A DNA stretch of 64,000 nucleotides from contig JAEILZ010000004.1 in the NCBI GenBank assembly GCA_018873225.1, positions 1,736,001 to 1,800,000 of the forward strand. The letters are read 5' to 3'. The notes under the pieces are model-generated. The model did no database searches. It worked only from the letters and a program-made list of their open reading frames with translations, and was not told the DNA's origin. The position numbers were made by a program, and so were the translations under genes. The stretch comes from [Phialemoniopsis] sp. UDSM-2020 (Eukaryota; Ascomycota; Sordariomycetes; Thyridiales; Thyridiaceae). Of the stretch, positions 7,138-61,996 are shown piece by piece; within the stretch, counting starts at the first letter, position 1; the number at the start of each line of letters is the position of its first letter.

Positions 7138-10100
7138 ATCGGAAAATTGTGAAATGCAGAATATGTACGACTAGGGAAAGGAAGGGAATGATACCAGGAG
7201 TTGCGAGTTGTATAACAGGTGCTAGACGCCATTTTGCTCTGATCGGCCTAGGAGAGTTCTCCAGCCGTTTGTGTTATCGTAGGATCGAATATCCATAGTG
7301 TATTTTATTCCAATCTAATAATGTGTAATCTCGAACTTCTATCACTTCCAACAGTTTGGTGAAACTGATCTATCTCGCGTAACGCCTCATATCGTTATTT
7401 GGCTTCCATTGGTCAATGTCCAGCCTATGGTTGTCAAGACACACTCCTGTTATGCAGTCTCGCCGTTGGAATTAGGTTTGGGAATCACAGTTACACTGTG
7501 CACTCACGTGTACTGTTTTTCGTGTGTTTCCGTGCAGGCGTTCGAACGACTGGCTCGCCAGGCCGCACCTCATCGCCTCCCGGTCCCTCCCGCTCATTCG
7601 GCACGAAGCGAGAGCGCCCAACCATACACAAACAGTGAACATGACGGTTCGGAGAGTCTGACCGCTTTGCAAATACAAAGGGGGGAAGAACAAAAACAAA
7701 AAGATAACGTACAACATCAGGAATTCGCTGGTCGTCACCGACCCAACTACTACTCTGACGGTCAGTGGCTTATCGAGGGCAGAGCGGACGGGATGCCGAG
7801 TTTTCCACTACCTATGGTCGTACATGCTTTGGCAGTGCTGCTCGTCCTGATCATGAGGGTGAGACGCGTCCCGGGCCACCCCCTTTGTCCGCCTGTCCTC
7901 AAGCCAAGACCGCGGTGTAAGCTCATAAGAGCTCATGTGGAAAGTACCCGGCAAACAATGATGGGCGGAGTGGGGGTTGATGTGTAGAAGAGACGTCGGA
8001 GCGTACATGGGACTTTCTCACCGTCTCAAGGCGAAGTACTTTGCATTCAAAGTGCAGTTTCATGCGCCCGTCGGCGTCGACCTTTGATATCAGGTACCCA
8101 CCCACCCAGAAGGCGCGGGCACAACGAAGGCTGAGAAGCAGTGCCGGAGGTTAAACGAGCCAGGCTCTCAGGTCAACCCGGTCCTTGGAAGATGGAGTAA
8201 ACGATGGGTGGGTGGGAACCTTGATGCATAGGCTGAAGTGGAGGGCACGCGGGATAATCATGAATACTCAACCGAATCGGATTGGTAGGCAAACAGCATG
8301 ATCTGGTCCAGGCGACCGATTGCTTTCTTTTGGGGAGAACTCTTCATACGAAGTTGCAGGGGCAGAGATTCTGCAGCTTGCCGGGCGGTAGCATCACGAC
8401 GCGCCACCGTGCAGATGACATGCTGCGAAGTGACTGCAGGGCGCGCAACAAAATTTGACATGGACGGAACAAGCTCCGGCACAGGCGTATTGGACCGGGC
8501 CTTTTATTCAAGGTACAATCATTACAAAAATTATAGCGCCCAACAATACAGGTACGACGACGCCAATATGCAGCCTGCCGTGATCACCCCAGTGACACCT
8601 CCGGGGCAGTGTTGACAGCTCCCCGGACACGGGAACCCGCGTCGCTAGAAAGCAAAAGGACCTCGAGCCCTCCCTCCTCGACTCAAGCTCCATTGTCAGA
8701 CCGCCTTTTATCCAGTGCCAGGTGGCCGTGTAACTGAGGGTATAAATCGGTGATCTCGTGTGACGGTGGCGCTGAGGGGCGAGAGACGGGACGGTATCAT
8801 GCCATGTTGTTGTACATTTTTCCCAGTGAATCTTGGTCTGGCAATCTCGCCCTGCGACAGTGCTTTTGTGTTGGGTGCTGATGAACGCGCATGAGCGGTG
8901 TAGGAAGGAGAAATGAATGTTGAAGCGGCAAGGGGCCATGAAGGATAGAGCAGAGGTTGGTGTCGGAAGAAGTCGAGACAAAGGCGTCAACTAGTCTATG
9001 CTGTCAGTATATCCCATCCTAGTCGTTTGCACAGTGCTTTACGGTGGGTGTCTTACCGCCGACTCCTGAAACTTGCGAGCATATCACAAGCTATCATTAG
9101 GGTATGTTATTCGTGTTCATTTTTTCGTCGACTGTCTTCATCACTCCCTTAACCTCGGCCATGCGATCATCAGCCGTCGCCGGGGATGTCGAGTCGTCAG
9201 TCCTGAAGATGACAAAAGGGCCATTGTGTGGTGGTTGTCCACGGAATTGGCTCAACTGCTGTTTTTCTAGGGATTGCTGTTCTTTACGGGGTGCTTGAGG
9301 CTCCGTGTCTTGCCTAGACGTGCCTCAGCAAGAACGATAGGAGGCAACAGGACGAAAGAAAGTCCTTTAGTGACGGTTGTAGGAAGATCTTGACCTACCC
9401 ATTCTGTAATGAGATGTTCGAAGACGTGGTCATGGCTGCGGGAGGCTTTGGAGGCCAAAGTCCAGGGTGTCGAGGGCGCGATGGCTCGTTTTCTCAGGGG
9501 GAGAGTTCGCGATTCGTGTGTCGGAATGTGTCGCACCATCAACTCTGCTCGGAGGGACAAGACACCATGCTTTTATACATCCTTCTCCAGGAGATACGAA
9601 GCTGCATTCGAAAAGCCCTCATCCTTGCCGTGGTCAAGGATTATTTTGATATTGATTCGCGTGGCGGTCCTCAGGGTGACCGCGTCGATATGCACCTAGT
9701 CAAATGTGATCAGTGTAGCTTGCGAGGACAAGCGCATAATGCTTATTGCCACGGACGCCAAGTGCAATGAGTTGTCAAAAAAGGGGAAGGGGTCATGGCG
9801 ATGTAGAGGAAAAAGCAAAGGAGGAAGTGCCCAAAACAGTGACATTGGGCAGCCCGACGAATAGGAGTGCATGCTGGAAATTTGCGATCCTGAGGGAAAC
9901 AAGGTGGCCGTCGTGAATGTGTCATTTTGACTTGTCGGATTAGCTGATGCTGTGCGACTACACGAGACAGATCCTTCTCCTGTGTACATCTCCGGCGTGG
10001 TTAGGATCGAGGACTGTCTTGTTGTGTGGCTCACCGGATGAACAGGCTTGCAGCCGAGGCGGCGGGTACGGACAGATCCCCCTTGGCCATAGTAATACTC

Positions 10101-58949: not shown

Positions 58950-61296
58950 GGTGATTGATGTGTGGTTGGAAGTTGAACTTCAAGTGTTTGATTGTATTGG
59001 ATTGTGTGTTGATTGGAGAGTGTGAAGATTGTTTGATGATGGAAAAAGGAAGACGAGTTGGAGGTGAGGGTGGGAAGAGGACGTCTTAAATAAAAGAAAT
59101 GATCCAAACCTTGGGTCACAGGCAGGAGAGCAGCAAGCAGCCAGTGCCTTCCACAAGCACAGACGCCTGCCTTGTGAAGAGGGCTATTGTTGCCTTTCCA
59201 TCATGTGAAGATGGATATTGCGTCATGGAAACTGGCCTCGCGGGCAGCAGTTGGGGAAAGCTCACCTACCATTTCCCACATCCGCAGCCACAACCATGTA
59301 CATTACGGCGAAAGTGCCTCTTACACCCCGCAGAAAGGTGCGCACCCAGACGGAGCTTGTGAGCTACGGAGCTTTTGCAGGTGGGAAATACTTAATTATG
59401 ACGTACAACCGGTCGCCAAGCCGTGCCTTGCTAGTGGTTGCCGTATCTACATGCTCTTTTCCACTTGCCGCAGCAAGCTCTCATGTACCTACCTGCGACG
59501 ACATGTGGGAGGGTGCGGCGGCGTACGTATGCTCCCAACTTGCTCACGGGCAACAAATGATGTTGAGGAGGAGCTCGTGCCACAGGAGACCCTGACGCAA
59601 GATTGCGTAGGATGCTCGTGAAGTGTGGCGTATGACCCGGTGTAAATGGTGGGGATACAAGGAACGCAATGATCTCCATCCAAGGTACGGAGTATGACGG
59701 GTAAAGAAGTGTGGCGATGCATAGGTCGGCTTGATCCTGTACTTCCGCTAATCCTGATGAATGCACTGCGTGAAGAGGTACCTCGATAGTGAGCTTTTCA
59801 ATCAGCGAGGTTCTTATGCAGAGGCTGGATCTAGACTCTGATGACGATACAGGCTCGTTTACGCTTTAGCCGAAAGCGGAAAGGTGCCGATCACTTGAAG
59901 AAGGTTCCAACAATTCGGCACCGCTTTTGCTGGTTGTTTTGCAGGCTTGACAGCGGGTCCTGTGGCTGCCCTTTGCTCCGGTTGGCCACTCTATTCTAGC
60001 TCCCCCTGTGCAGTGACGACACGACTTTCTGTGCTATCAACCTGCATCATCCCACGGTCACTGTAAGACAGCCACAAACCTTTACCTGCTCCTCTTTCAA
60101 GTGCAGAAAGCAAACAATCCCATTGGCAACTTCCGATGCTCTTTCGGTCAGATGATCGCCCAGCGGATACCTACCAAAGGTATGGTAGGTAGGCGGTACC
60201 ATCAGCCGGGCAATCGCTCAATCCCGGCATATTCTCTCAAGAGAAGCTACCCGGAGGCAAAGGTCCGGCCAGCGACTGCTTTCAATCAGGCAAGCAATTC
60301 TCCCTGTTTTCGAATCTCGATTCGATGCCTTTTCCACCAAAGGACCTCTCTTGCCTATCAGACTTATCATGGGATGGTGCGCTGCCTGGCTCCATCTTAT
60401 CAGCTGGGACTACTTCGGCCCGCTCCTAGCCTAGCGACGAGACCTCGACCCGATTCAAACACACCCTGAAATCGACAGCCGGGTATCTTAACAGTAGGAT
60501 CAAGAGCCCATGATAGGTACGATTGCATGGAGGTTATGTCGGTACATGTCATGACCGAAAGTGCATCGTGATATCGATCGATAGCCCCCTCACCCGAGGT
60601 TGCCGCCGTTGAAATGCAAAAGAAATGCAAAAGTCCCCTCCAAGACCACGTGTGAGGTTGCATGTTTCAAGCTTGTGACCGCCGGAGCTGCCCCCTTGCA
60701 TTCCAGTAAGTTTAAGTCTACGCTGGCGTGTTCCATGAGGCTCGACTAGCCCGAGGTTGTGCTGTGTTTCGATTTACTGTATGGATTCTCCGATGGCCGA
60801 GGAAGCTCAGGGTCCCTTTCGTTTAGCAAACACTTGGACTTGCTCCCAGCATCTCTTGAGTTGAAATCTACCCAGAAACACCCGGGGCTTCTAGTTAGCC
60901 CCTTGACCCAGCAATATCATACTAGACTGAGGGTGGGCTGCCAGTCTTCGAGTCTAACTTCCTAGGACGCTGCAGCATGGCACATGGTGATCAAGTCTGT
61001 TTTCAAGGTCGCCATAATCATTCTCCAGATTAGCGGGGGGCCAGAGGTCTGAACAATCATCAAGATAGGCTTGTTGCTCACGCATGCACAAAGCTGTGGT
61101 GATGATGGTGGCTTGAGAGCGGTGCTGTTAGTCCTTAGCACCCATGGGAGCCTCGCCCCCGATATCGTGGGCCGCCCTTTCCTACTCTCAGTCCTTACCA
61201 GACAGCACCTACACCTACACCTGCCCTTGTACCACCTCCCCTATTGCCTTCTTTTATTACAATAGTTTGATCTTGCCTCAACAACAAAGAACACCA
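58950..61296. other. Intergenic, grg-1 upstream region
   Basis: 2.3 kb without a supported gene. The part nearest grg-1 is its promoter. Short plus-strand frames at 59.2-59.6 and 60.1-60.5 kb have no family resemblance. An AT-rich patch (TTTTATTACAATAG) lies about 45 nt upstream of the tRNA gene. Confidence 0.55.
59084..59096 (-). promoter_or_regulatory. TATA-like element of grg-1
   Basis: On the minus strand the sequence reads CTTTTATTTAAG, about 140 nt upstream of the grg-1 ATG. It is followed by a C/T/A-rich leader without G runs, as in strongly expressed fungal genes. Confidence 0.5.
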
Positions 61297-61311
61297 TCCG
61301 ATGTGGTGTAG

Positions 61312-61366
61312 GTTAGTACAGTCCACAGTCCTTGTACGACTCTTCCAACACTAACCTCCCTTGCAG
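61312..61366 (+). other. Spliceosomal-like intron inside the tRNA D-loop
   Basis: 55 nt beginning GTTAGT and ending TTGCAG, with a branch-site consensus ACACTAAC at 61348-61355 placing the branch A 12 nt from the acceptor. Length, branch motif and spacing match the protein-gene introns in this window (51-90 nt, GCTAAC or ACTAAC near the 3' end). It lies between tRNA positions 15 and 16. The alternative is a non-canonical tRNA intron cut by the tRNA endonuclease. Confidence 0.7.
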
Positions 61367-61390
61367 TGGTCAACATCCTGGATTCTCAAG

Positions 61391-61398
61391 AGTCTCTT
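61391..61398 (+). other. Canonical short anticodon-loop intron
   Basis: Eight extra bases lie between position 37 and the base before the 3' strand of the anticodon stem. The approximate boundary is 61389/61391 to 61396/61398, because repeated bases blur it. The insertion contains GAG, able to pair with the CTC anticodon as in usual tRNA precursors removed by the tRNA splicing endonuclease. Confidence 0.65.
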
Positions 61399-61409
61399 CC
61401 AGGGCCCGG

Positions 61410-61420
61410 AGTTCGATTCT
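61410..61420 (+). promoter_or_regulatory. Pol III B box of the tRNA gene
   Basis: AGTTCGATTCT fits the B-box consensus GGTTCGANNCC with mismatches at the first and last positions. The matching A box (TGGTGTAG plus TGG) is split by the 55-nt insertion, with halves at 61304-61311 and 61367-61369. Confidence 0.75.
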
Positions 61421-61431
61421 CCGCATCGGAG

Positions 61432-61996
61432 TCTTCTTTTTGTCATTTCATTCTACTTGTCCTGTACTTTTTGCTGTTGCTCAAGGAGTGTTTGTGTGTC
61501 ACAAGGGTGGTGGTGGTGCTCAGAGAACCAAGTTTGATAGGACAGCATTGAAATACAGTAGACGGCTATCACTGTCAGTCCCCGAAATCCGCAAAGGCCT
61601 TCCCCTCCCTTTCGGGTGACAATCACAAGTCTAACGCAAACTTTCAATATTCGTCCAAGCCCTCTTGCAAGGCGTGCAGTACAGTCACGACTGTCCCCTG
61701 ATTCGTAAGGTGCCACTACATAAGTACACTTGACAAAATACCATACCAACTAGCATCAGGGTCACACGAAGGGCACTCAATCAAACAGCCCGAGGAAGTG
61801 TCAAAATGGGGTATTTTATTTCATTGCAATGTTTAGTAGTTGGGTCGTATAATTGCCGAGCCTCAAAAGCCATAGATGAATAGCTCATCATCATAGTCCT
61901 TACATCGTACAAGACGGCCTGTCAAATCAGACAACCATTGACATTGATCGTTCCAATAGAAAGAGAATCTTGGATCACCTTCCAAAGTGAAGCAAA
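61432..61996. other. Intergenic between tRNA and POT1-like gene
   Basis: Apart from the T5 terminator, this holds only the AT-rich 3' flank of the minus-strand gene. No gene seen. Confidence 0.65.
61437..61441 (+). terminator. Pol III terminator (T5)
   Basis: Five T residues starting six bases after the discriminator base of the tRNA, the normal place and form of a Pol III stop signal. Confidence 0.75.

Follow-up and report, generated by a model that had tools for sequence, protein, structure and literature searches.

At least 13 nuclear tRNA genes of this fungus very probably carry GT-AG spliceosomal introns, so that their Pol III pre-tRNAs would be processed by the spliceosome and then by the tRNA endonuclease. 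Introns of tRNAs and introns of mRNAs are treated as separate worlds with separate machines; if our reading is true, genes that need both machines in turn link the capacity of the spliceosome to tRNA supply. The direct evidence consists of the anatomy of the sequences, the restoration of tRNAs upon removal of the inserts, the presence or absence of the insert relative to two unsplit paralogs, and structural conservation.

A tRNA-Glu(CTC) gene with two introns

In the window, the whole 64,000-nt stretch of DNA that was analysed, a tRNA-Glu(CTC) gene on the + strand (61297-61431) is interrupted between tRNA positions 15 and 16 by 55 nt (61312..61366, +); a sequence-only reading of the window had described this insert, and its coordinates and motifs were confirmed. 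The insert begins with the 5′ splice site GTTAGT (61312..61317, +), holds a CTAAC branch site (61351..61355, +) with the branch A at 61354, 12 nt before the 3′ end, and finishes with TTGCAG, whose CAG (61364..61366, +) forms the 3′ splice site. We assigned it to the spliceosomal type from this anatomy and from 12 comparable genes elsewhere in the genome. Exon 1 (61297..61311, +), delimited by ARAGORN on the joined sequence and by an A-box check, comprises positions 1-15 with the acceptor 5′ strand and the first half of the A box, TGGTGTAG. The downstream parts were placed by ARAGORN: exon 2 (61367..61388, +), which contains the remainder of the D arm up to position 37 and the anticodon CTC at 61385-61387; a canonical 8-nt intron of the tRNA endonuclease type, AGAGTCTC, after position 37 (61389..61396, +); and exon 3 (61397..61431, +), with position 38, the anticodon 3′ strand, the T arm, the acceptor 3′ strand and the discriminator G. 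The B box, GTTCGATTC, is intact (61411..61419, +), and a T5 run at 61437..61441 (+) is the likely Pol III terminator. The gene thus has two introns of two types, of which the sequence-only reading had recognised the 55-nt insert correctly and overlooked the canonical one.

Once the 55 nt were taken out, ARAGORN with introns allowed read a 72-base tRNA-Glu(CTC), which bears out the earlier proposal that removal of the insert restores the D arm; the joined gene measures 80 nt because the canonical 8-nt intron after position 37 is also present. With both inserts removed, all stems pair and the anticodon loop, B box and terminator are in place, and shifting the exon/insert junction by as much as 2 nt leaves the product unchanged. 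The unmodified genomic stretch was misread by ARAGORN as tRNA-Asp(GTC) when anticodon introns were allowed. ARAGORN without introns found no tRNA anywhere in the window, and Rfam yielded no tRNA-family match in the window at gathering scores, nor in 61000-61800 up to an E value of 10. Among 2,000,000 random segments of 48-72 nt from both strands of the window, 7658 had GT..AG ends, and 41 combined these ends with CTAAC and a branch A 10-15 nt from the end. The D arm was restored, by criteria that we set ourselves, in 16 of 1922 tested deletions, which clustered at this junction, and one of the 16 was GT-AG. Elsewhere in the window, a 5S rRNA gene (7706-7825, − strand) matched the whole Rfam model with 83 bits and contained no insert.

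Split tRNA genes across the genome

We searched the genome (44.2 Mb in 11 contigs, including one of 28.9 kb that is mitochondrial by its genes) using Rfam tRNA matches, a B-box pattern, a splice-motif-plus-B-box pattern (26 places) and 5′-half patterns as sources of candidates, and examined these candidates with structural scans and ARAGORN. The genome is fungal: one protein of the window finds its closest named matches in Sordariomycetes (Cytospora at 73%, Colletotrichum and Hypoxylon at about 69%), and the mitochondrial ND6 is nearest, among named matches, to Sporothrix (83%), followed by Niveomyces and by further fungi including Ceratocystiopsis, Leptographium and Diaporthe, with a metagenome protein matching at 96%. 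Twelve further split nuclear tRNA genes were found, giving at least 13 with the window gene, and three of them encode elongator Met. The split lies between positions 18 and 19 in Glu(TTC) (L017), Arg(CCT) (L096), Gly(TCC) (L108) and Gly(CCC) (L125), the last having one acceptor mismatch; at 19/20 in Leu(CAG) (L101); at 25/26 in Arg(CCG) (L097); at 32/33 in Met(CAT) (L085) and Leu(CAA) (L084; G000:C1, near 2349 kb); and at 34/35 in two Met(CAT) genes (L095, G000:C6, near 3954.8-3955.1 kb; L114), Ser(GCT) (L047) and Gln(CTG) (L045). With at least 12 more such genes in the genome, a spliceosomal intron in a tRNA gene, as first suggested for the window gene, is the best-supported reading. Five candidates (L021, L110, L123, L143 and L150) were half-recognised by ARAGORN or by the scan and were dropped, their arms giving no tRNA.

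Of the 13 split genes, 10 came from lists built without any splice motif (Rfam, B-box and 5′-half patterns), and these inserts start with GT in 10 of 10 cases, end with AG in 9 of 10 and contain CTAAC with its A at 10-15 nt in 9 of 10. The B-box pattern matched 88 nuclear places, 27 of which scored as tRNA genes by their acceptor and T stems; split genes made up 8 of 26 in this set, the ambiguous L021 being left out. At least 52 distinct unsplit nuclear tRNA genes were counted, with 63 of 930 Rfam candidates scored.

After splicing, all 13 split genes were read by ARAGORN as the expected tRNA. Run with introns allowed on the unspliced DNA, the program misnamed ten of them (L009, L017, L045, L047, L085, L096, L097, L101, L108 and L114) as genes for Asp, Phe, Thr, Tyr, Asn, Lys, Pro or Gln. 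Such genes are misnamed or overlooked by standard tRNA annotation, and they may therefore sit under wrong names in other fungal annotations.

Anatomy and origin of the inserts

The 5′ ends of the 13 inserts read GTTAGT, GTGCGT, GTACGT (three), GTAAGC (two), GTAAGT (two), GTGAGT (three) and GTGGGT. GT-AG ends were found in 12 of 13; the exception, Leu(CAA) L084, has GTGAGT and CTAAC, but its 3′ end as defined by the tRNA is GG, which may be a splice site changed by mutation or one of a rare non-AG kind. The fungal-type branch site is CTRAY. CTAAC is present in 12 inserts and CTAAT in that of Gly(CCC). In every one of the 13 the distance from the branch A to the 3′ end is 10-15 nt, where the splice-motif-plus-B-box pattern would have admitted 7 to 27 nt. 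Eleven inserts are 48-59 nt long, and the others measure 72 and 189 nt. The 189-nt intron of L095 folds very strongly, with -126 kcal/mol for the unspliced gene and -34 for the joined one. The same plan was seen in the two introns of an EBP-like protein gene in the window, which have GTAAGT, CTAAT or CTAAC, and CAG; this is a very small mRNA-intron sample, of two introns from one gene placed by homology to one protein, and its branch distances are slightly longer than those of the tRNA inserts.

Two of the split genes could be aligned with unsplit paralogs. Spliced Gln(CTG) L045 is identical to unsplit L073 at 69 of 72 positions without gaps, and spliced Leu(CAG) L101 has exons identical to those of unsplit L051, the differences being confined to the canonical intron, so that in these two genes a paralog and the tRNA structure both define the junctions. 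These Gln(CTG) and Leu(CAG) genes are natural presence/absence pairs for the study of intron gain.

A canonical intron near position 37 is also present in 11 of the 13 split genes, and the new inserts differ from it in lying elsewhere and in being GT-AG with a branch site. None of the canonical introns of 10 unsplit genes combined a GT start with an AG end, and none contained CTAAC (the intron of L046 was misplaced by ARAGORN). Canonical introns were counted by hand in 11 of 13 split against 12 of 52 unsplit genes (p 7e-5), the 52 being biased to high-scoring genes, and in the B-box set in 6 of 8 split against 8 of 18 unsplit genes (p 0.22); because of this bias and of the result in the B-box set we make no claim of enrichment.

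In an all-against-all BLAST of the 13 introns, matches between different introns did not exceed 9 nt, and a search with the 55-nt insert of the window found no further copy of it. Since the introns share no sequence beyond the splice signals, we rejected a recent introner family as their source; one possible route of gain is reverse splicing into tRNA loops that lie exposed. Degenerate group I introns of 56-81 nt have been reported (PMC3160393) and are not called for by the GT/CTAAC/AG plan.

Promoter and terminator elements

The inserts occupy several tRNA positions and lie at or past 18/19 in 12 of 13 genes. The A box (TRGYNNAR..GG) is intact in the unspliced DNA of 12 split genes, including the four cut at 18/19, where the first G of the intron serves as the second G of the A box; the window gene, cut at 15/16, is the only one whose A box is broken. 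All 13 genes keep the B box, and 12 have T-runs of at least 4 within 34 nt downstream, the exception being Glu(TTC). These boxes and T-runs fit transcription by Pol III, and the Pol II transcript that the sequence-only reading had offered as a way to mature such a gene is not favoured by them. Owing to its broken A box, the window gene is the one for which transcription by Pol III is least certain, and its expression by this route may be weak or absent.

Alternative explanations

Insertions outside position 37 are described for red algae and nucleomorphs, and the present inserts might likewise be non-canonical tRNA introns cut by the tRNA endonuclease at a bulge-helix-bulge, as in those lineages and in archaea. 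We consider this very unlikely, even though C. merolae and G. theta are described as having non-canonical introns in the D arm (PMC4090602) and the window gene itself could form a 4-bp central helix, without an inner helix, at its −1 junction. Such a helix, sought together with a 3-nt bulge on either side, appeared in one of the 13 genes over 37 junctions, with a chance rate of 1.7% per junction; the bulge-helix-bulge that the sequence-only reading had named as counter-evidence is thus at chance level across the set, yet the single case is the very gene in question. Excision by the endonuclease would moreover give no reason for GT, for CTAAC at 10-15 nt, or for AG.

The split genes could instead be pseudogenes that took up introns by chance or by retro-insertion and yield no tRNA. 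Short insertions in the D or T arm, mostly in one of many synonymous genes, have been taken for pseudogenes (PMC4090602), and unsplit copies do exist here for Glu(CTC), Ser(GCT), Gln(CTG) and Leu(CAG). What decay looks like in this genome can be seen in L115 (G000:C11:577600-578000), where the split Met(CAT) gene L114 recurs in two copies, both decayed and inverted: the first has a damaged B box and a branch site that reads CTAAT instead of CTAAC, and the second consists of a 5′ fragment. The promoter boxes of the split genes, by comparison, are intact in nearly all and T-runs follow 12 of 13, and three pattern searches found no unsplit gene for elongator Met. The window gene was compared with the three unsplit Glu(CTC) genes (L010, L011 and L012, all of the same sequence): with both introns out it is identical to them at 57 of 72 positions and differs at 15, and among 21 stem pairs we counted four two-sided changes that still pair (one acceptor pair, two anticodon-stem pairs and one T-stem pair), no one-sided change and no broken pair. 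The sequence-only reading had taken intact copies elsewhere, together with stem-breaking changes at the locus, as the signs of decay; the former exist, but the changes at the locus are compensated, a pattern that speaks for use of the window gene and not for its decay. We therefore give the pseudogene explanation only a slight chance of being right.

Least credible of all is that the four genes split at 34/35 are tRNA-Thr(CGT or GGT) genes, each with one long canonical intron, although ARAGORN does call L045, L047 and L114 Thr with a long intron near position 38. Spliced L045 matches Gln(CTG) as noted above, L047 is Ser-like with a long variable arm, and L095 and L114 have a T31/T39 mismatch, a feature characteristic of elongator Met tRNA in yeast. 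An unsplit Thr(CGT) gene was called in L054. A Thr assignment would combine Thr anticodons with the bodies of Gln, Ser and Met tRNAs, and it leaves the D-loop cases unexplained.

Proposed pathway and known parallels

Under the spliceosomal reading, Pol III would transcribe a split gene from its internal A and B boxes, and the nuclear spliceosome would excise the GT-AG intron, recognising GTNNGY, CTAAC and AG. The tRNA body would fold only afterwards, after which the tRNA endonuclease and ligase would take out the intron at position 37, and the resulting tRNAs would be used in the cell. We would place the spliceosomal step first because the eukaryotic tRNA endonuclease is described as measuring from the tRNA body by a ruler mechanism (PMC4090602), and the D arm or anticodon loop would be unformed before the spliceosomal step.

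The closest parallel is the U6 snRNA of Schizosaccharomyces pombe, a Pol III transcript whose mRNA-type intron is described as removed by the spliceosome (PMC8917221). There the host is itself a spliceosomal RNA, whereas here many tRNA genes are split, at several positions, and usually contain a second intron of another type. No U6 intron was found in the present genome, where the three matches above the cut-off each cover the full model within 92-102 nt. In lichen-forming ascomycetes, spliceosomal introns of rDNA are described as removed from a Pol I transcript (PMC8527467), which resembles our case in placing such introns outside mRNA and in a non-Pol II transcript, and differs in that the host there is Pol I rRNA and here Pol III tRNA. 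The genes of red algae and nucleomorphs resemble ours in having introns at sites other than position 37, in some cases several in one gene (PMC4090602). The insertions reported there measure 3-24 nt in G. theta, and the C. merolae introns lie at bulge-helix-bulge sites (PMC4090602); the present inserts are at least 48 nt long, and their bulge-helix-bulge potential does not go beyond chance.

Spliceosomal introns are thus known in non-coding genes and are apparently new in tRNA genes. The sequence-only reading had known of no described case, and we likewise saw no report of spliceosomal introns in tRNA genes among the titles and abstract openings listed by a search of open-licence PMC, a collection that leaves subscription journals uncovered. 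If our reading is true, the spliceosome acts on short Pol III transcripts besides U6.

Search for unsplit counterparts

Translation in this fungus is probably directly dependent on the spliceosome, in that all elongator Met tRNA, and perhaps all Glu(TTC) and Gly(TCC) tRNA, would need both splicings; intron gain would have been nearly confined to sites that spare the A box. Judged from the genomic patterns, the case for tRNAs made from split genes only appears firmest for Met and weakest for Glu(TTC) and Gly(TCC), and the absence of unsplit genes rests on the patterns used, because the count of tRNA genes is not exhaustive.

Three pattern searches of the genome brought up no unsplit gene for elongator Met. 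CTCATA plus a B box occurred at 4 places, none of them a Met tRNA, and TCTCATA plus any B box at 9 places, with no tRNA in any. The 5′ half of the Met gene, allowing as many as 3 mismatches, matched 33 places: five are split Met genes or decayed copies (L085, L095, L114 and two in L115), four are Leu(AAG) (L034, L052, L131 and a truncated copy in L172), one is Leu(TAA) (L053), and the sequences of the remaining 23 were scanned and contained no tRNA. The copy in L172 (G000:C7:1448950-1449300) is broken in its T arm. The only unsplit Met(CAT) gene seen was L059, which we take from its sequence to be of the initiator type. As all the elongator Met genes seen are split, the cell would be unable to make this tRNA without the spliceosome.

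For Glu, the exact 5′ half gave 4 matches, the three unsplit CTC genes and the split TTC gene, with 100 of 125 places listed. Among the matches listed, all six two-mismatch places lacked a tRNA, and of at least 90 three-mismatch places four were scanned and had no tRNA, a fifth being the ambiguous L021. A single pattern for Gly(TCC) matched 15 places, among which no unsplit Gly(TCC) gene was found: 13 were without a tRNA, one was the split gene, and one lay inside the gene at L152. The latter (G000:C11:947970-948350) is of the Gly(GCC) type; its canonical intron site is occupied by 62 nt in which a GCACAGTTCT-like motif recurs.
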